Assembly: GCF_024746795.1 (NCBI RefSeq)
Contig: NZ_CP080524.1
Span: 3,140,001 to 3,204,000, forward strand
Direction: 5' to 3'
DNA length: 64,000 nt
Source of the DNA: Mesorhizobium sp. AR10
Lineage (GTDB): Bacteria > Pseudomonadota > Alphaproteobacteria > Rhizobiales > Rhizobiaceae
Made by a program: the position numbers and the translations under genes. Below are positions 2,325 to 14,687 of this stretch, one piece after another. The notes under the pieces were generated by a model. The model was not told where the DNA came from. It did no database searches and saw only the letters and a list, made by a program, of their open reading frames with translations. The stretch's first letter is position 1. The number at the start of each line of letters is the position of its first letter.

Positions 2325-2339
2325 GGGCAGGAGGTGACG

Positions 2340-3452
2340 ATGGCGACAGCGGCCAAGACAAAGCGCGATTACAGCTTGGTCGGCGAGAGCACGCGCCGGG
2401 CGATCGAAACCGGACTGGCCTCGGCCGAATGGTATCATACCGATGTCTCGCGCAAGGCGATGAAGGAATTGATGCAGCGCTCGGATGGGCCGGCGATCCG
2501 CGACACGATCATCTGGATCGCCGCCATCCTGGGTTCCGCCGCCGGCGGCATCTGGTTCTGGGGTAGTTGGTGGTGCGTGCCGTTCTTCTTCGTCTATGGC
2601 TTGCTCTACGGCTCCTCCAGCGACTCGCGCTGGCATGAATGTGGCCATGGCACTGCTTTCCGGACGCGCTGGATGAACGATGTGATCTATCAGATCGCCA
2701 GCTTCATGGTGATGCGCAACCCGGTAACCTGGCGCTGGAGCCATGCGCGCCACCACACCGACACCATCATCGTCGGCCGCGACGCCGAGATCGCGGTGAT
2801 GCGGCCGCCGGACCTGCTGCGCGCCGCACTTGCCTTCACCGGCATCCTCGATTTTCGCTATTCGCTGCCGGCGCTGCCGGCGCTGCCGGCGCTGGTGCGC
2901 CAGGCGTTCGGCAAACTGTCTGACGACGAGAAGAGCTATGTTCCCGAGATGGAGCAGCCGAAGGCCGTCGCCGCCGCGCGCTGGCATGTCGCCATCTATA
3001 TCGCGACGATCGCGCTGGCGCTCACCATGTGGTCGTTTCTGCCGCTGATGATCATCGGCCTGCCGCGCCTCTACGGCAGCTGGCACATGGTGCTGACCGG
3101 CCTGCTGCAGCATATCGGTCTCGCCGACAACGTCGTCGACCATCGGCTCAACACCCGCACCGTCTATATGAACCCGATCAGCCGCTTCATCTACTGGAAC
3201 ATGAACTATCATGTGGAGCACCACATGTTCCCGATGGTGCCCTACCACGCGCTGCCGAAGCTGCATGAGCTCATCAAGCACGATTTGCCGGAGCCGAACC
3301 CCTCGATGTGGCATGCCTATCGCGAGGTCTGGCCGGTGCTGCTCAAGCAGCTCGGATACGAGGACTATTTCCTCAAGCGCGAATTGCCGGCGACAGCGCG
3401 GCCCTATCGCAGCGAGTTCCACGAGGTCGATATGTCAGCGGCGGCCGAGTAG
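2340..3452 (+). CDS. Fatty acid desaturase family membrane di-iron enzyme
   Basis: The 370-residue protein has the three histidine boxes of membrane di-iron desaturases and hydroxylases: HECGH at residues 99-103, HARHH at 135-139 and HVEHH at 291-295. Hydrophobic stretches lie near residues 57-92 and 215-245. AGGAGG just before ATG 2340 fixes the start; an upstream in-frame GTG at 2334 overlaps that site. The family inserts double bonds or hydroxyl groups into acyl chains or other hydrophobic molecules at the inner membrane. Its position inside a sugar-oxidoreductase/PanB-like group is unusual for a lipid desaturase, so a small-molecule oxygenase role is possible. A (Leu-Pro-Ala)3 microrepeat lies at residues 176-184. 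Confidence 0.82.
   Translation: MATAAKTKRDYSLVGESTRRAIETGLASAEWYHTDVSRKAMKELMQRSDGPAIRDTIIWIAAILGSAAGGIWFWGSWWCVPFFFVYGLLYGSSSDSRWHECGHGTAFRTRWMNDVIYQIASFMVMRNPVTWRWSHARHHTDTIIVGRDAEIAVMRPPDLLRAALAFTGILDFRYSLPALPALPALVRQAFGKLSDDEKSYVPEMEQPKAVAAARWHVAIYIATIALALTMWSFLPLMIIGLPRLYGSWHMVLTGLLQHIGLADNVVDHRLNTRTVYMNPISRFIYWNMNYHVEHHMFPMVPYHALPKLHELIKHDLPEPNPSMWHAYREVWPVLLKQLGYEDYFLKRELPATARPYRSEFHEVDMSAAAE
2865..2891 (+). repeat. Three 9-base tandem units inside the desaturase gene
   Basis: CTGCCGGCG occurs three times back to back and is followed by a partial fourth copy. The units are in frame and encode Leu-Pro-Ala three times, in a loop between the second and third histidine boxes. A change in copy number would keep the reading frame. 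Confidence 0.75.
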
Positions 3453-3543
3453 GCGCTCCCCATGAACCACCCGCGAGCTATCCGGTCTGCCTCGTGGCCG
3501 ATAAGGTGATCGGGAAGATCAATTCCAACAAACAGGACATCCG

Positions 3544-4347
3544 ATGAGCCGCAAAAGACCCACGATCGCAGACCTGCGCGCCATGAAGGGCAAGCGCCAG
3601 CTGACCATGCTGCGCGTTTTGACCATGGACGAGGCCGAGGCTGCCGAGCGGGCAGGGGTCGACATCGTCTCGGTGCCACCGGAGCTGGTGCTCAATCCGC
3701 AGTACCGCGATGCGGCGCCGAGCCTATTCACGATGCCGGGCGAGAATTTCTTCGAGATCGGCACCGCCGATGATTTTCTGCGCTGGGCGTTCAGGCTCTA
3801 CAAGGCGGGCGCCGATGCAGTCTATTGCAGCGCCGGCTTTGCCACCGTCAAGCGCCTGGCGGACGACGCCATTCCGGTGATTGGCCATGTCGGCCTCATT
3901 CCTTCCCGCGCGACCTGGACCGGCGGCTTCAAGGCGGTTGGCAAGACCGCCGATACCGCCATGCAGATTTTCGAGGCGGTGAAGCAGTATGAGGCCGCCG
4001 GCGCGGTTGGCGCCGAAATCGAGGTGGTGCCGGTCGAGGTGGCCAAGGCGATCTCGGAACGCACCTCGCTGATCATGCTGTCGATGGGGGCGGGTACCGG
4101 TTGCGACGCGCAATATCTGTTCGCCGACGACATCCTTGGCCAGAACCGTGGCCACATGCCCCGCCATTCCAAGGTCTATCGCAACTTCGCCGCCGAATAT
4201 GACCGCTTGCAGGCGGAACGCATCGCCGCGTTTTCCGAGTATGTCGCCGACGTGAACAGCATGGCTTATCCCGAAGACAGGCATGTGGTGCATATGGATC
4301 CTGACCAGCTCAGCTCGTTCATGAAAAAGATCGATGGCGTGGCTTGA
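3544..4347 (+). CDS. PanB-like (ketopantoate hydroxymethyltransferase family) protein, divergent active site
   Basis: This is a 267-residue TIM-barrel protein. Its second half matches 3-methyl-2-oxobutanoate hydroxymethyltransferase well: VIGHVGLIPS, then GGFKAVGKT, IEVVPVEVAKAI and MGAGTGCDAQ. In the first half the usual GDS metal-binding turn is replaced by VPPELV, and the usual K-x-E motif after GADAV is replaced by YCSAGF. Genuine PanB binds Mg2+ and ketoisovalerate with those residues. I infer a different reaction in the same or the wider PEP-mutase superfamily. The gene is 91 bases after the desaturase and convergent with the lyase homologue at 4369. It should not be taken as the pantothenate gene of the cell without testing. 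Confidence 0.72.
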   Translation: MSRKRPTIADLRAMKGKRQLTMLRVLTMDEAEAAERAGVDIVSVPPELVLNPQYRDAAPSLFTMPGENFFEIGTADDFLRWAFRLYKAGADAVYCSAGFATVKRLADDAIPVIGHVGLIPSRATWTGGFKAVGKTADTAMQIFEAVKQYEAAGAVGAEIEVVPVEVAKAISERTSLIMLSMGAGTGCDAQYLFADDILGQNRGHMPRHSKVYRNFAAEYDRLQAERIAAFSEYVADVNSMAYPEDRHVVHMDPDQLSSFMKKIDGVA

Positions 4348-4368: not shown

Positions 4369-5850
4369 TTACGCCTGCCAGGTGCCGTTGGTGAGTGAGG
4401 CGTAGAGCGCTTCGGCGTCGACGCCCAGTGGCCTGTCTTCCCCAAGCGTCGGCACGTGCGTGCGCACTGCCGCATGAATCACCCCGGTGGCTGGCGCCAG
4501 CGCCAGACCCTCGCGCAGGTCTATCGCCTGGGCGGCGGCCATCAGCTCCAGGGCGATCAGCCGCCGCCACAGCGCGATCATCTCGGCGCATTTCGAAACG
4601 GCCAGTGGCGTCTGGGTCGCATGGTCCTCGACGCCCTCCGAGACGGCCAGGAAATCAAGCATCACCGGATTGGCCTTGTGACGGATGGCGGCCAGGATTG
4701 CCGTCACCGTTTTTTGCAGCGGCACGAAGCCGGCCGAAGCACCGCCGACCGGCGACAGATATTTCGGCAGGCCGTTGCGACCCGAACCGGTGAGCTGGAT
4801 GAAGCGGGCAGCGCTAGCAGCCGCCGTCTGGGCGATGGCAAGGCCGAGCGTCTCGAAGGCCAATGCCAGTGACGCAGTGTGGAAATTGCCGGTCGACAGC
4901 ACCAACTCGTCCTCGCCCAGCACCAGCGGGTTGTCGGCGCCGGCGTTGATTTCGATCTCGACCGCCAGCCGAGCGTGATCGATTGCCTGAATCAGCGCGC
5001 CATGGATCGACGGCATGCAGCGGATCGACAGCGGATCCTGCAGGGTTGTCGGGGCCGGGGCCTCGTTTCGCGCCAGCAATTCGCGCAACTCCTTCGCCGC
5101 GACCTGCTGGCAGGCCGCCGGCCGTGCTGCCTGCAGGCGCGGATCGAGAATCGTCTGGTTGGCACCGACGCCTTCCATGGTCAGCGCGCCTGCCTGCTGC
5201 TGCTGTGCGAAAGCGGAGAGTGCATCGACAACCGCCAGCGCGGCACTGCCGACAGAGGCTGCCGAGGTGTTGATCAGTGACAACCCGTCCTTGGGCGCGA
5301 GGCTGACCGGCGCCAGGCGCGCCATCATCAGCGCCTTGGCAGCCGGCATGCGCCGGCCCTGATAGTCGGCATCACCGTCGCCGGTCAGCATGCGGCCGAG
5401 CGCTGCCATCAGCACCAGATCGCCGGCGCCGATCGAACCCAGCGACGGCATCACCGGATGGACGCCGGCATTGAGCACCTCGATGAGTGCGACGAAAACT
5501 TCCGATGAAATCCCCGAACCACCGGTCGAAAGCATCGCAGCGCGGGCAAGCATCGTCGCTCGCACGATTTCTTGTGGCAGCGAGTCGCCAACTGCGCCGC
5601 TGCGCCCTTCCAGCAGCTGGCGCTGGAATGCACTGGCATCGCCGTTGACGGAGGTGCCGAGATTGGCGCCGAGCCCGGTGTTGAGGCCATAGATCGGCTG
5701 GCCGGAAGCGGCAGCCTGGTCGAGGACCTTGCGTGCCTTGCCCAGCCTCTCCATGACGGTGGGCGCTATCTCCACCTTGCGGCCGTCGCGGGCAACCGCC
5801 GCGACATCCTCGACGCTGATGCTGGCCCCGGTGAGGACGAGCGCGTTCAT
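4369..5850 (-). CDS. HAL/PAL family aromatic amino acid lyase homologue without the MIO triad
   Basis: The 493-residue protein spans the full length of histidine/phenylalanine ammonia-lyases. It has YGLNTGLG near residue 54 (the catalytic Tyr region) and GADNPLV further on. Active family members contain GSVGASGDL, whose Ala-Ser-Gly cyclises to the MIO electrophile. Here the sequence reads GSIGAGDL, with S139-I140-G141-A142-G143-D144, so the serine is missing and normal MIO cannot form. The codons at 5416-5436 show this directly. The ATG overlaps the stop of the upstream cyclodeaminase-like gene in an ATGA, indicating translational coupling. Histidine or phenylalanine deamination is therefore unlikely. 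It may catalyse a MIO-independent elimination or act as a binding protein. Confidence 0.8.
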   Translation of the reverse strand: MNALVLTGASISVEDVAAVARDGRKVEIAPTVMERLGKARKVLDQAAASGQPIYGLNTGLGANLGTSVNGDASAFQRQLLEGRSGAVGDSLPQEIVRATMLARAAMLSTGGSGISSEVFVALIEVLNAGVHPVMPSLGSIGAGDLVLMAALGRMLTGDGDADYQGRRMPAAKALMMARLAPVSLAPKDGLSLINTSAASVGSAALAVVDALSAFAQQQQAGALTMEGVGANQTILDPRLQAARPAACQQVAAKELRELLARNEAPAPTTLQDPLSIRCMPSIHGALIQAIDHARLAVEIEINAGADNPLVLGEDELVLSTGNFHTASLALAFETLGLAIAQTAAASAARFIQLTGSGRNGLPKYLSPVGGASAGFVPLQKTVTAILAAIRHKANPVMLDFLAVSEGVEDHATQTPLAVSKCAEMIALWRRLIALELMAAAQAIDLREGLALAPATGVIHAAVRTHVPTLGEDRPLGVDAEALYASLTNGTWQA

Positions 5851-6848
5851 GCGAAGCGCAACCGCTGGCCGATGCCTTGCGCCTGCGCCTTGGCCAGCAT
5901 CGCCTTGCCCAGCGCGATGTCGGAGAGCGACAGGCCGCGATGCCAGAACAGGATCGTTTCGTCGTCGTTCTCACGCCCCGCCTTGCGGCCGGCGGCGATC
6001 TGTCCGAGTTCGGCGTGCAGCGTCCGTTCGCTCAGGCGCCCGGTCTCGACATGGGCGCGCAACGAACCGAACTTGCCGCCCTTGCACTGGCCCCAGTCGT
6101 CGACGACGATTTTTTGCATGATGTCGGTCAAGGAAAGCTCCACCGCGCTCATCGTACCATAAGGCACCACAAGCGCACCGGGTTTGATCCATTCGGTCTT
6201 CAGCAGCGGTGCCGGCTCGGGCAGCCGCGAGGCCTCGACGACGATGTCGGCGCCTGCCACGCATGAACGCCAGTCGGCAACCGCAGTCACCGGCTTGCCG
6301 AGATCGGCGGACAGTTTTGCGGCAAAGCCGTCGCGGCTTTCCGGCCGGCGCGAATGTACGCGGATCTCGTCGAAGTCGAAGAGATGGTCGAGCAGGCGTA
6401 CGTTCCAGTAGGCGGTGCCGCGCGCACCGATGTGGGCGAGGACCTTCGATGTCTTTTTCGCGAGATGTTTTGCGCCGATGGCGGTGACGGCGCCGGTGCG
6501 CATGTCGGTGATGACGGTGGCGTCGAGAATGGCGCGGGGCGTGCCGGTGCGCGGATCGAACAGGTTGAGAATGCCGAATTCCGAAGGCAGACCCTGCAGA
6601 TAGTTGTCGACATAGTCGCCGACGATCTTGACGCCGGCCGTGTCGAGTGGCGCGACGTAGCCGCGCAGGACATTGAAATGGCCGTGGAAGGACGGGTCCG
6701 GCTCCAAATGGACGCGTGGCTCGATGACCGTCTGGCCGTTGCCTTGCGCCACCAGCCCGGCTTCGACCGCATCGATGATCTCGGCATCGGTCATATCAAG
6801 GGCGTCAATGTCCAGGGCGTTGAGATAGTCGATATAGATCGGCTTCAT
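5847..6848 (-). CDS. Ornithine cyclodeaminase / mu-crystallin family protein
   Basis: A 333-residue protein with the family layout. Substrate-domain residues include AGVKIVGDY, with Lys74 at the position expected for the catalytic lysine. The Rossmann segment has IGARGTA at about residues 140-146, and RTGAVTAIGAKHL lies before it. Family members are ornithine cyclodeaminases, ketimine reductases, alanine dehydrogenases or opine-type enzymes that use NAD(P). The last four bases overlap the start of the lyase homologue, so the two products probably act together on an amino acid or imine. ATG 6848 is chosen because family homology starts at MKPIYID; longer reading upstream shows no homology. It is divergent from the MFS gene at 7029, which may export or import the substrate. 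Confidence 0.8.
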   Translation of the reverse strand: MKPIYIDYLNALDIDALDMTDAEIIDAVEAGLVAQGNGQTVIEPRVHLEPDPSFHGHFNVLRGYVAPLDTAGVKIVGDYVDNYLQGLPSEFGILNLFDPRTGTPRAILDATVITDMRTGAVTAIGAKHLAKKTSKVLAHIGARGTAYWNVRLLDHLFDFDEIRVHSRRPESRDGFAAKLSADLGKPVTAVADWRSCVAGADIVVEASRLPEPAPLLKTEWIKPGALVVPYGTMSAVELSLTDIMQKIVVDDWGQCKGGKFGSLRAHVETGRLSERTLHAELGQIAAGRKAGRENDDETILFWHRGLSLSDIALGKAMLAKAQAQGIGQRLRFA

Positions 6849-7028: not shown

Positions 7029-8474
7029 ATGACCGCCATTCCCGAAAATGAAAGCTTGCCCCAGCCGTCGACGATGCCGGCGCGGCAAGCGCGGCGCGTG
7101 GCGTTGATCGTCGCCGTTGCCTTCTTCATGCAGCTTCTGGATTCGACGATCATCTCGACCTCGCTGCCGCAGATGGGAGAATCCTTCGGCGTGCCGGCGG
7201 TGTCGATGAGCATCGGCATCACCGTCTACATGCTGACCATGGCGGTGTTCGTGCCGCTGTCCGGCTGGCTTGCCGACCGGTTCGGTGCGCGCAACATCTT
7301 CCTGATAGCGATCGCCCTGTTCACGCTGGCCTCGATTGTCTGCGGCTTCTCGCAGAATCTGACCCAGTTCGTCGCAGCGCGTGCCGTGCAGGGCTTGGGC
7401 AGTGCACTGATGACGCCGGTCGGCCGCATTCTCGTCCTGCGCAATGCGTCGAAATCCGAGCTTCTCAACGCCACCGCGCTGATCACCTGGCCGGCGCTGT
7501 TCGCGCCGGTGGTTGGGCCCGTGCTTGGCGGCTTCATCACCACCTATCTCTCATGGCACTGGAATTTCTTCATCAACATCCCCCTCGGCGTGGTCGGCCT
7601 GGCGCTGGTCGCCCGCTTCATTCCCGGCGACCGTGAGGCCGAGACCATGCCGCTTGACTGGCCAGGTTTCTTCCTGACGTCGATCGGGCTCGCCTCACTG
7701 CTCTACGGCCTCGAACGCATTGCGCACCCCGAAGATGGTGTCTTGCCAACCGTGGTGCTGCTTGCCGCCGGCATCCTGGTCGGCTGGCTGGCGGTGCGGC
7801 ATCTGGCGTACACGAAATATCCGCTGCTCGACCTTTCAGCGTTCAGGGTGTTGACCTTCGCCATCTCGACGCTGGCGGCCGGCACGATCTTCAGGGTGGC
7901 GATCAACACCACGCCGTTCCTGCTGCCGCTGCTTTTCCAGGTCGGTTTTGGGCTCCGGCCCGTCGATGCCGGCATGCTGATCTTTGCCTATTTCCTTGGC
8001 AATCTCGGCATGAAGGCGGTGACGACGCCGACGCTCAGGCGTTTCGGATTTCGCTCGGTGATGGTCGTCAACGGGGTGATCGCCTCGCTATCGATCATGG
8101 CCTGCGCTGCGATCTCGCCGCAGACCCCGCAAGCGCTGGTGGTGGCGCTGATGCTGGTCGCCGGTCTGTCGCGCTCGATGCAGTTCACCGCGCTCAACAC
8201 GCTGGCTTTCGCTGACATCGCAGCTGTGCAGCGCAGCTCGGCGGCGACGCTGTCCAGCATGCTGCAGCAGGTGGCGATGCTGTTCGGCGTCGCGGTGGCG
8301 GCGGCGATCCTCAACCTGTCGCAGATCGCCCGGGACCGCCCCGTGCTCGACATCGTCGACTTTCGCATCGCCTTCCTGGTGATCGGTGTCATCGGGCTCG
8401 TCGCTTCGTTCCGCTTCCTGGTATTGCCGCCGGCTGCGGGCGCCGAGGTTTCGGGGCACACTCCGAAGAATTGA
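7029..8474 (+). CDS. MFS transporter, DHA2 (EmrB/QacA-like) family
   Basis: A 481-residue integral membrane protein with about 14 predicted transmembrane segments. It has the MFS motif A (GWLADRFGARN) in the first cytoplasmic loop and a motif-C-like segment (APVVGPVLGG) in helix 5, both typical of drug:proton antiporters. The residue near the start of helix 1 (LLDSTIIS) is the conserved Asp of DHA2 proteins. The reading frame stays open far upstream, but homology begins at about the ATG at 7029. The gene is divergent from the cyclodeaminase/lyase pair with 180 bases between, which could hold a shared promoter. Export of a toxic compound or pathway intermediate is likely; the substrate is unknown. 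Confidence 0.85.
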   Translation: MTAIPENESLPQPSTMPARQARRVALIVAVAFFMQLLDSTIISTSLPQMGESFGVPAVSMSIGITVYMLTMAVFVPLSGWLADRFGARNIFLIAIALFTLASIVCGFSQNLTQFVAARAVQGLGSALMTPVGRILVLRNASKSELLNATALITWPALFAPVVGPVLGGFITTYLSWHWNFFINIPLGVVGLALVARFIPGDREAETMPLDWPGFFLTSIGLASLLYGLERIAHPEDGVLPTVVLLAAGILVGWLAVRHLAYTKYPLLDLSAFRVLTFAISTLAAGTIFRVAINTTPFLLPLLFQVGFGLRPVDAGMLIFAYFLGNLGMKAVTTPTLRRFGFRSVMVVNGVIASLSIMACAAISPQTPQALVVALMLVAGLSRSMQFTALNTLAFADIAAVQRSSAATLSSMLQQVAMLFGVAVAAAILNLSQIARDRPVLDIVDFRIAFLVIGVIGLVASFRFLVLPPAAGAEVSGHTPKN

Positions 8475-12312: not shown

Positions 12313-13318
12313 TCAGTTCGCCGCTTGCGCCTTCAGCGCGCGCAAAATGCGCTCCGGCGTGATCGGCAGCGTGTCGATGCGCACACCGACGGCGTCGAAC
12401 ACTGCATTGGCCAGGGCAGGGATTTGCGGGTTGGCGCACATTTCGCCTGGCCCCTTGGCGCCAAAGGGGCCGTCTGCTGATGGCCGCTCCAGCACGATGA
12501 TCTCGGTTTGCGCGAGATCGCCCGGCCCCGGCATCAGATACTGGTTGAAGTCGGTGCCGCCATGGTCGCGGTTGGGATAGTAGGGTTCTGTGGTTTCGTA
12601 GAGCGCATGGCTGATGCCCATCCACGAGCCGCCGACCAACTGCTGTTCGACCATTTTCGGGTTCAGAGCGCGGCCGATCTCGAAGATGTTCTTGACCGTC
12701 AGCACGGTGACCTCGCCGGTCTCGTCATCGACCTCGACCTCCGCCACGGTGCAGGCGTGGGCGTAGCAGGTCGACGGCTTCATCGCGCCGGTTTCTTTCT
12801 CGGGATAGGAGCGCGGGATCAAGAACATACCACGGCCGGAGATCGAGCGGCCACGCTTGAAATGCGCCGACAGCGCGACATCGAAGATCGAGATCGACTT
12901 TTGCGGCGCGCCCTTGACCAGGATGTTGCCCTGGCCGTCTGTCTCAAGGTCGGATGCGTTGACCTCCAGTTCCTCGGCAGCCACTTCCAGCATCACCTGG
13001 CGGGCTTCCCTGGCCGCCTGGATGACGGCGTTGCCGGCGCGATGCGTGCCGCGCGAGGCAAATGTGCCCATGCAGTGCGGACCGGTGTCGGTGTCGGCGG
13101 TGTCGACGACGACGCGGTCGGTCGGCACGCCAATCGTCTCGGCGCAGATCTGCGCCATGATCTGTTTCATGCCCTGGCCCAGATCGACACTGGACAGCGT
13201 GACCATGAAATTGCCGGTTGGGGTCGAATGGACCAGCGCCTGGGTCGGGTCGCCACCGAGGTTCATGCCGGTCGGTATAGTTGATTGCGGCGACGCCGCG
13301 CCCGCGCCTGATCGCCAT
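12313..13318 (-). CDS. Molybdenum hydroxylase large subunit, C-terminal half (separate gene; apparent one-base frameshift)
   Basis: The ATG at 13318 follows GGGAG at an ideal distance and lies one base after the stop of the N-terminal half. It encodes MAIRRGRGVAAINY. The frame then has to shift by one base to continue as PTGMNLGGDPTQALVH and run to 12313. Removing one T on the plus strand at about 13276 restores a continuous product of about 334 residues. The rest is a typical molybdopterin-binding C-terminal domain, with VDLGQGMKQ and the catalytic glutamate in GAKGPGEMC. Splitting this subunit into two genes is known, for example in nicotinate dehydrogenase. The inserted base may be a sequencing error, a real mutation or, less likely, programmed shifting. 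If real, the enzyme may be inactive. Confidence 0.72.
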
Positions 13319-13319
13319 C

Positions 13320-14687
13320 TCAAGCTCCCTTCGTATAGGAGGACATGGCCATGAACTTGTCTGCCACCGGCCAGTTGGCGGCGCGCGAGGCTTCCTGCAT
13401 GCATTCGATCAGCGCCGCGCCCTCGGTCGGCTGGCGATGCGCCTTCATGTCGCCGTCGCGATAGGCGTTGATGAAGCGGAATTCGAGCGGATCCATGCCG
13501 ATCAGCCGGGCCAGCTTGTCTATCTGCACCTCCAGGGCGAAATCGCCGATGGTGACGCCGAAACCGCGCATGGCCGAGGAGGGCGTGCGGTTGGTGTAGA
13601 CGCAGTAAGTGTCGATCCAGACATTCGGGATCGTATAGGGGCCGGGATAGTGGCCGGCGCCCTTCTGCGCGCCATAGGGCGAATGGCGCGAATAGGCGCC
13701 TGCATCGGTGTAGCCGGTGACTTTTCGCGCGACGATGCGGCCGTCTTTCATCACGCCGTCCTTGATGACCACCTTTTCGGCCGCGCGGGGCGAGGAGATC
13801 TGCATCTCCTCCTCGCGGCTGTAGATGAAACAGACCGGCCGCCCGGTTAGTTTGGCGCCGAGGATGGCGATCGGCTCGACAATGACGTCGACCTTGCCGC
13901 CAAAACCGCCGCCGACGGTGCCGCCGACGAAATGCAGCTTGCTGCCGGGCATCTGCAGGATGATCGAGGCGTTGTCGAGGGTGAAGAACATTGCCTGCGT
14001 GTTGGTGTAGCAGGTGAAGCGGTCATTGGCCTCGGGCACCACGACGCAGCCGGTGGTCTCGGTCGGTGCATGTTCGATCGGCGAGGATTGGTAGCTCTGT
14101 TCCAGGATGTGATCTGCGCCAGCAAAGCCGGCCTCGACATCGCCGAAGCGCACCTTGCGGCATTCGCCGCTGTCGTAGAGATAGTAATTCTGGCCGTGAT
14201 ACTCGTTGACGACAGGCGCGCCGGGCTTCAGCGCTTCCTCCATGTCGAACACGGCCGGCAGCACCTCGTAGTCGACCTTGACCTTGGCGGCGGCTTCTTG
14301 TGCGGCGCGTTCGGTCTCGGCCAGCACCGCCACCACGGCCTCGCCCTTCCAGCGCACCTTGCCGTCGGCCAGCACCGTCTCGTCCTCCGGCCCGATCTGG
14401 ATCAGGATCAGGATGGTGTAGACATTGTGCGGCACATCCTTGGCGGTCAGGATCTTCACCACGCCCGGATGTTTTTCCGCCTCTGAGGTGTCGATGCTCC
14501 GGATGCTGGCATGGTGATGCGGGCTTCGCACCATCTTCAGATGCAGCATGCCGGGAAAATTGCGGTCGGCGAAATAGGCGGTCTTGCCGGTGACATGGCC
14601 GGGAGAATCCGAGCGCGGCCGCGGCTGGCCGATCTCGTGCAGATCGTCCTTGCGCTGATCGGCGAAGTAGTTCTTGCGCAGTTCCAT
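13320..14687 (-). CDS. Molybdenum hydroxylase large subunit, N-terminal half (xanthine dehydrogenase family)
   Basis: A 455-residue protein beginning MELRKNYFADQRKD. It holds the aldehyde oxidase/xanthine dehydrogenase a/b hammerhead domain (VTGKTAYFADRNFPGMLH at about residues 32-50) and the first molybdopterin-binding domain. GGGFGGKVDV forms part of the cofactor pocket. The active-site loop reads SSAMRGFGV and not AYxCSFR, so this is not a form I CO dehydrogenase. It ends cleanly in KGA-TGA, immediately before the separate gene for the C-terminal half. The gene lies 10 bases after the 2Fe-2S subunit gene. Together with the FAD and FeS subunits it should hydroxylate a heterocycle, aldehyde or similar compound with water-derived oxygen. 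Confidence 0.85.
   Translation of the reverse strand: MELRKNYFADQRKDDLHEIGQPRPRSDSPGHVTGKTAYFADRNFPGMLHLKMVRSPHHHASIRSIDTSEAEKHPGVVKILTAKDVPHNVYTILILIQIGPEDETVLADGKVRWKGEAVVAVLAETERAAQEAAAKVKVDYEVLPAVFDMEEALKPGAPVVNEYHGQNYYLYDSGECRKVRFGDVEAGFAGADHILEQSYQSSPIEHAPTETTGCVVVPEANDRFTCYTNTQAMFFTLDNASIILQMPGSKLHFVGGTVGGGFGGKVDVIVEPIAILGAKLTGRPVCFIYSREEEMQISSPRAAEKVVIKDGVMKDGRIVARKVTGYTDAGAYSRHSPYGAQKGAGHYPGPYTIPNVWIDTYCVYTNRTPSSAMRGFGVTIGDFALEVQIDKLARLIGMDPLEFRFINAYRDGDMKAHRQPTEGAALIECMQEASRAANWPVADKFMAMSSYTKGA

Follow-up and report, generated by a model that had tools for sequence, protein, structure and literature searches.

An aromatic-lyase-fold protein of Mesorhizobium without the MIO triad, related to ergothionase and recurrently paired with an OCD-family protein

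The locus

The window, that is the whole stretch of 64,000 nucleotides analysed here (G000:C2:3140001-3204000, where C2 is the contig label for the window genome), carries on its minus strand two genes that share four bases, the first encoding an OCD/mu-crystallin-family protein and the second an aromatic-lyase-fold protein (Table 1). This four-base overlap with an OCD-like gene had been claimed in the original prediction and was confirmed by reading, and the exporter-type MFS neighbour that it named does score above the cut-off of the DHA2-exporter model TIGR00711.

Table 1. Features of the window discussed in the text
Feature	Position	Strand	Basis
Fatty-acid-desaturase-family protein, adjoins the PanB-like gene, link candidate only	2334..3452	+	PF00487, 125.4 bits
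Non-canonical PanB-like protein, convergent neighbour, link candidate only	3544..4347	+	PanB models, 124.1/103.7 bits; cut-offs 272/207.55
MIO-free aromatic-lyase-fold protein, ergothionase-type	4369..5850	-	493 aa; PF00221, 433.5 bits
Codon of Lys380, marker of the MIO-free branch; aligns with Lys383 of the 6s7j chain	4711..4713	-	alignment
GSIGAGDL motif, residues 138-145, replacing GSVGASGDL; MIO triad absent	5416..5439	-	direct reading, alignments
Codon of Arg83; His at this place in HAL and ergothionase	5602..5604	-	alignment
OCD/mu-crystallin-family protein, distinct and very conserved subfamily, first gene of the pair	5847..6848	-	333 aa; PF02423, 195.6 bits
DHA2-type MFS exporter, divergent neighbour, link candidate only	7029..8474	+	TIGR00711, 234.5 bits; cut-off 230.2

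Of the 75 Mesorhizobium-type loci, 61 have the DHA2 exporter alongside the pair, as against none of five loci of other genera; the PanB-like and desaturase-family genes are found in 65 and 68, respectively, of the same 75. PanB-like and membrane fatty-acid desaturase/hydroxylase-family genes lie beside the pair both in the window (2334-4347) and in Alisedimentitalea (L186:8743-10713), where the PanB-like protein belongs to the subfamily of the window's; among all contexts searched, this association was confined to Mesorhizobium-type loci and one Rhodobacterales plasmid. The eight genes scanned around the pair in the window include no amine importer, methyltransferase, CoA enzyme or hut gene, and a search of the rest of the window genome for a PhnD-like gene, made with a single query and without a positive control, gave no match at E 0.001. 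Further along the window (12313-14687, minus strand), two overlapping frames look by eye like parts of a single molybdenum-hydroxylase large subunit between which the reading frame has shifted.

A lyase fold without the MIO triad

Codons 5416-5436 of the minus strand encode S139-I-G-A-G-D-L145, which, as had been predicted, is SVGASGDL minus one residue, and the Ala-Ser-Gly triad that cyclises to MIO is absent, setting the protein apart from the MIO-dependent HAL, PAL and TAL enzymes. The YGLNTG stretch, the retention of which had likewise been claimed, is found at Y54, and both the profile match and the structural model assign the protein to the PF00221 aromatic-lyase fold. Against the hutH equivalog of the curated NCBIfam models it reaches 373.3 bits, below the cut-off of 539.15, and five relatives also remained below this cut-off in a profile scan. 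The window genome encodes, in addition, an ordinary HutH (C2:4661231-4662604) with the full GSVGASGDL. Public records label these MIO-free proteins histidine ammonia-lyase, hutH or HAL/PAL/TAL family despite the absent triad.

A codon missing through sequencing error, which the original prediction had named as a refuting outcome of resequencing, was looked for in the relatives. The short motif is present in 80 of 80 orthologous genome loci and the full motif in none, and all of the 120 nearest proteins among the matches listed, the window's own included, are equally short, so that sequencing error is excluded as the cause. Those of the listed homologues that carry an organism name are from Mesorhizobium. 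When the protein search was seeded with a Polaromonas relative, 113 of 120 proteins among the matches listed had the short motif, the other seven falling outside the search pattern. Purifying selection acts on both genes, with dN/dS values of 0.13-0.20 for the window lyase against seven orthologues and of 0.06-0.11 in seven comparisons of the OCD gene; across the 80 loci, identity to the window proteins is 58-86% for the lyase and 80-96% for the OCD protein.

Kinship with ergothionase

The best PDB sequence match of the window lyase is ergothionase of Treponema denticola (6s7j, E 7e-78), followed by the Thermoplasma entry 7tqr (1e-70) and the HAL of P. putida (1e-62). An AlphaFold2 model of the lyase (pLDDT 87.3, pTM 0.90) retrieved with Foldseek first 6s7j (E 1.5e-32, TM 0.93) and then the HAL structure 1gkj (E 1.6e-30, TM 0.94); since these scores are nearly equal, the fold cannot by itself separate the window lyase from HAL. 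A tree separates them better, and the alignment with HAL and MIO-less homologues that the original prediction had proposed groups the window lyase with the MIO-free rows, ergothionase among them. For this tree 84 rows were aligned, with the trait's own columns kept, and 81 were used with a midpoint root, after L111 (motif GSVGYIT), the partial copy L181_18 and L189 (R. lusitanum, an unannotated record) had been dropped. A single branch (support 100/99) unites 58 of the 59 MIO-free rows, including ergothionase and the window lyase, apart from the 22 MIO rows, and thus the clustering with active HAL or PAL enzymes that would have spoken against the original prediction was not found. Within this branch, ergothionase forms a five-row subclade (100/100) with copies from Polaromonas, S. 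meliloti, Burkholderia and Paracoccus, which excludes the window gene; the latter lies in another subclade, of 52 rows (100/99). The window lyase shares with ergothionase the superfamily branch, the loss of the triad and the retained fold.

The remaining MIO-free row, L126, has a branch length of 4.06 and is too divergent to place. Because it lies outside the branch, the trait is counted as two changes, one change being obtained in 14% of bootstrap trees. L126 is the third PF00221 protein of the window genome (G000:C2:3699224-3700546; L126:5192-6640, plus strand) and, with the motif GQGGAGEIL, Ala83 and Ile380, represents another MIO-free form; a similar copy with GNGGAGEV is carried by L272.

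Ergothionase has been published as a MIO-free trimethylamine lyase, according to PMC13405746 (citing Maurer 2019). In this regard, the claim that a MIO-free lyase paired with an imine or amino acid enzyme would represent new chemistry or a new pathway stands in part: the window lyase is MIO-free, intact, conserved and paired with the OCD gene in its own lineage, but the MIO-free state is not new, as ergothionase falls in the same branch. Mutants without MIO are treated in PMC3903478 and PMC12535398, and in the latter hydroamination is wholly lost in the PAL mutant S154A, so that loss of MIO in a normal PAL is insufficient for activity.

Signature residues

By alignment, the window lyase has Y54, R277, K380 and E408 at the active-site places of ergothionase, where Tyr, Arg, Lys and Glu are presumably essential, the Lys (Lys383) and Glu411 of that enzyme among them. 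Tyr54, Arg277 and Glu408 are invariant across 32 aligned rows, and Lys380 is present in 55 of 61 MIO-free rows versus 0 of 23 MIO rows (Fisher 2e-15, a value to be taken as a guide only because the rows are related); the MIO-free rows without it are L111, L121, L122, L125, L126 and L184. Arg occupies position 83 in 50 of the 61 MIO-free rows, whereas ergothionase and the MIO rows with a residue at that place have His.

Some copies depart from this pattern. A lyase type with GSVGYLT or GSVGYIT at the MIO site, His83 and Tyr380 is represented by L230:15478-17112 (minus strand) and L111, the former near a Lys380-type MIO-free lyase. On pSymA of S. meliloti (L184:7929-12912), a MIO-free lyase has Ala replacing Lys380, and an ABC transporter and a DMSP-lyase-domain protein are encoded close by.

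The OCD-family partner

PF02423 covers the partner protein over its length, and membership of the OCD/mu-crystallin family, which the original prediction had expressed as a cyclodeaminase- or ketimine reductase-like gene, is thereby retained, but none of the 13 NCBIfam models matched was over its cut-off and the protein could be assigned to none of the named enzymes tried, that is ornithine cyclodeaminase, alanine dehydrogenase, EutC, BhcD and SbnB. Imine formation and reduction are typical of OCD-family enzymes, and GxGxxA is the usual nucleotide-binding motif of the family. All 18 aligned members of the partner's subfamily read GARGT[AS] at this place and have in common GHFNVLRG, GARGT[AS]YWN, HSRR and PYGT. 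The OCD paralogues in the window genome are only 24-31% identical to the partner protein.

A recurrent but optional pair

Conservation of the neighbour, which the original prediction had proposed to examine, is complete among the orthologues: the OCD gene is present, and on the strand of the lyase, in 80 of 80 loci. The best-segment ends of the two genes are less than 60 bases apart in 79 loci, the best lyase segment of L078 beginning within the gene, and the four-base overlap was measured in 76 loci, the pattern used leaving the other four unresolved. Among more distant relatives, an OCD protein of at least 50% identity is found near 15 of 33 MIO-free lyases versus 0 of 19 MIO lyases; the stretch examined contained none for the other 18 MIO-free lyases, some of the 33 contigs being short.

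The link is not obligatory, however, when seen from the OCD side. A phylum search found the window OCD type in 11 of 398 genomes (E up to 1e-80), nine of which have a MIO-free lyase nearby (the window genome, six others of the genus Mesorhizobium, G661 and G1021), while in G936 the OCD gene lies beside a MIO-type lyase and in G037 the stretch examined contained no lyase. A class search found the OCD type in 26 of 376 genomes, of which 25 were inspected, G185 being left out: a Lys380-type MIO-free lyase lies beside the OCD gene in four (the window genome, G105, G351 and G355), and is lacking from the stretch examined in the other 21, several of the contigs being short. Only divergent lyases occur near the OCD gene in L260 and L272 of this search. 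Where the OCD gene occurs away from the lyase, its neighbours encode, among others, an amino-acid permease, a peptide-type binding protein and a class IV aminotransferase. Since the OCD gene often occurs without a Lys380-type lyase and among other neighbours, and in G936 beside a MIO lyase, its role is likely to be wider, and strict coupling is rejected by these searches; lyase and OCD gene form a module that recurs but is optional. A literature search that covered few subscription papers found no publication linking OCD genes with lyases of this type.

Two loci deserve separate mention. In L260:12442-15506 (minus strand), two tandem divergent lyases have MGMDGE and LGMDGE at the MIO site and Thr in place of Glu408; the OCD gene is about 3 kb away. 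In L229:9517-13991 (minus strand), a normal MIO lyase (GSVGASGDL) has as neighbours a PhnD-like gene and an OCD gene of the window's subfamily, an arrangement that counts against a strict tie of OCD to MIO-free lyases.

Genes for methylated amines beside relatives

Genes for MTTB, dimethylglycine-dehydrogenase-like proteins and quaternary-amine binding proteins, sought as indicators of methylated-amine metabolism, occur near 13 of 33 MIO-free lyases (MTTB 7, dimethylglycine-dehydrogenase-like 6, binding protein 4) versus 0 of 19 MIO lyases; 20 of the 33 loci have none of these three kinds. None of them is among the eight genes scanned at the window locus, and the inference towards methylated amines consequently rests on the relatives. 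Directly upstream in L163 lie genes for a dimethylglycine-dehydrogenase-like protein and for a second protein, in which MTTB and homocysteine-methyltransferase domains are combined; domains of MTTB and dimethylglycine-dehydrogenase type are treated in connection with glycine-betaine demethylation in PMC12478193.

Plasmids of Rhizobium acidisoli, Sinorhizobium sp. B11 and Rhizobium sp. CC-CFT758 combine a glycine-betaine-type ABC importer, two LLM-class monooxygenases, the OCD gene and the lyase gene, the last of these being followed by a PhnD-like gene in the first two. The importer binding proteins of the Rhizobium and Sinorhizobium plasmids match acetylcholine/nicotine-sensor precursors, ProX, the ergothioneine protein EgtUC and the choline/carnitine protein OpuCC, and those of their relatives with solved structures bind quaternary amines. 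The LLM genes of R. acidisoli exceed the NtaA/DmoA cut-off, and the binding protein of this plasmid matches OsmF below cut-off. The top PDB match of one LLM neighbour is 7e36. R. leguminosarum-type plasmids have CoA-transferase, SDR and MaoC genes upstream, an arrangement that fits an unsaturated acid as product, together with a HutC-type regulator. In the ergothionase clade, the Polaromonas lyase is accompanied by OCD and PhnD-like genes, and a hut operon adjoins the Paracoccus lyase. A class III aminotransferase adjoins two relatives (L123 and L178).

PhnD-like proteins are encoded near 7 of 33 MIO-free lyases and 1 of 19 MIO lyases (L207). Those next to the OCD or lyase gene in L132:13615-14433, L183:10703-11539 and L129:11498-12298 have by eye no signal peptide, and are thus perhaps not transporter parts.

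Interpretation

Taking the missing triad, the kinship with ergothionase, the conserved residues, the gene pairing and the methylated-amine genes beside part of the relatives as observed ground, we favour on balance, with modest confidence, a cofactor-free C-N lyase of ergothionase type acting on a quaternary-ammonium amino acid and paired with an OCD-family protein of an unusual kind. In more general terms, the window lyase probably degrades some methylated amino acid, often together with a partner dehydrogenase. The mechanism would be that of ergothionase, transferred by kinship: MIO would be unnecessary because a quaternary ammonium is already a good leaving group, so that the enzyme would expel this group in a reaction not involving the activation of ammonia by MIO. 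A base would take the beta-proton, the amine would depart and an unsaturated acid would result, with residues such as Tyr54, Arg277, Lys380 and Glu408 as putative acid/base catalysts. The departing amine would most likely be trimethylamine or another tertiary amine, released from a quaternary-ammonium amino acid (betaine). The OCD protein is probably a dehydrogenase, whose substrate would be an imino or secondary-amine compound related to the same N-methylated amino acids.

Several points speak against a betaine lyase of ergothionase type, namely the position outside the ergothionase subclade, Arg83, Ala for Glu in the motif, the 20 of 33 loci without a methylated-amine gene of the three kinds, the eight scanned window genes with no amine importer, methyltransferase or CoA enzyme, the fold that does not distinguish the protein from HAL, and the mixed neighbours of the OCD gene away from the lyase. 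What is left of the new chemistry originally envisaged is a variant of the ergothionase-type MIO-free lyases that is uncharacterised, misnamed and recurrently accompanied by an OCD protein. A more ambitious proposal, which we put forward tentatively as it is more doubtful than the favoured reading, is that of a large, misnamed family of MIO-free betaine lyases in soil and plant-associated bacteria, in which a substrate other than ergothioneine (e.g. a plant amino-acid betaine) and a new OCD dehydrogenase taking its partly demethylated or imino form would constitute a second way, so far undescribed, of releasing amines from betaines.

Among the alternatives, it is possible but unlikely that the MIO-free lyase expels another leaving group or performs amine addition, for example in a biosynthesis; the OCD protein would then form or reduce an imine, and export of the product would fall to the MFS protein. 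The imine chemistry of the OCD family, the DHA2 exporter of most Mesorhizobium-type loci and the class III aminotransferase beside L123 and L178 are in line with this, but annotated relatives are accompanied by importers and catabolic-type genes, and the exporter is absent from all five loci of other genera. Ergothionase proper, that is a trimethylamine-lyase of ergothioneine or hercynine, is the nearest solved relative, has the short motif and the Lys in common with the window lyase, and finds some echo in the importer binding proteins of relatives, for which EgtUC is a match though not the best; this identity is nevertheless improbable given the placement outside the subclade, the low identity to ergothionase, Arg83, Ala for Glu in SIGxGD and a scan of eight window genes that revealed no hut gene. 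A lyase-fold protein devoid of catalytic activity, serving as partner or regulator of the OCD protein, would agree with the constant pairing in the orthologous loci, with the overlap measured in 76 of these 80 and with the OCD protein being more conserved than the lyase, but we regard it as very unlikely in view of the purifying selection, of the conserved Tyr, Arg, Lys and Glu, and of the 18 of 33 MIO-free lyases with no such OCD protein in the stretch examined. Finally, despite the histidine ammonia-lyase name of the relatives, an ordinary histidine or aromatic ammonia-lyase restoring MIO by other means, or a sequence error, can be dismissed given the short motif in all 80 loci and all 120 nearest proteins among the matches listed, the separate branch and sub-cut-off hutH score that exclude an ordinary HutH identity, and the genome's own HutH.

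These observations bear on genome annotation, as many rhizobial genomes contain genes named histidine ammonia-lyase without the group required for the MIO reaction. Should the encoded proteins be betaine lyases, annotation would have concealed a source of trimethylamine and the use of plant betaines by root bacteria. In addition, MIO and Lys380 can be compared naturally within one fold in this clade, and with them C-N bond breakage with and without a built-in electrophile.

Comparison with known systems

The window lyase resembles ergothionase of T. denticola (6s7j/6s7q) in fold, length and the motif that is one residue short, and its Tyr54, Arg277, Lys380 and Glu408 correspond to Tyr53, Arg280, Lys383 and Glu411 of the 6s7j chain (chain numbering). 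Unlike ergothionase, to which it is 34% identical, it belongs to a sister clade and has Arg83 instead of His and Ala instead of the Glu of SIGEGD. With the MIO enzyme HutH, as represented by P. putida (1gkj/1b8f) and by the window genome's own copy, it shares the fold and much of the active-site frame, but it has no Ala-Ser-Gly and remains below the hutH cut-off, and in comparison with the genome's own HutH it has Lys380 versus Val and Arg83 versus His. The partner protein is similar over its full length to the archaeal alanine dehydrogenase 1omo (E 3e-39) and to the pyrroline-2-carboxylate reductase 6t3e (E 3e-38), yet it differs from 1omo in having PYGTMSA versus NAIGADGP, and from the usual family pattern in having GARGT[AS] versus GxGxxA.
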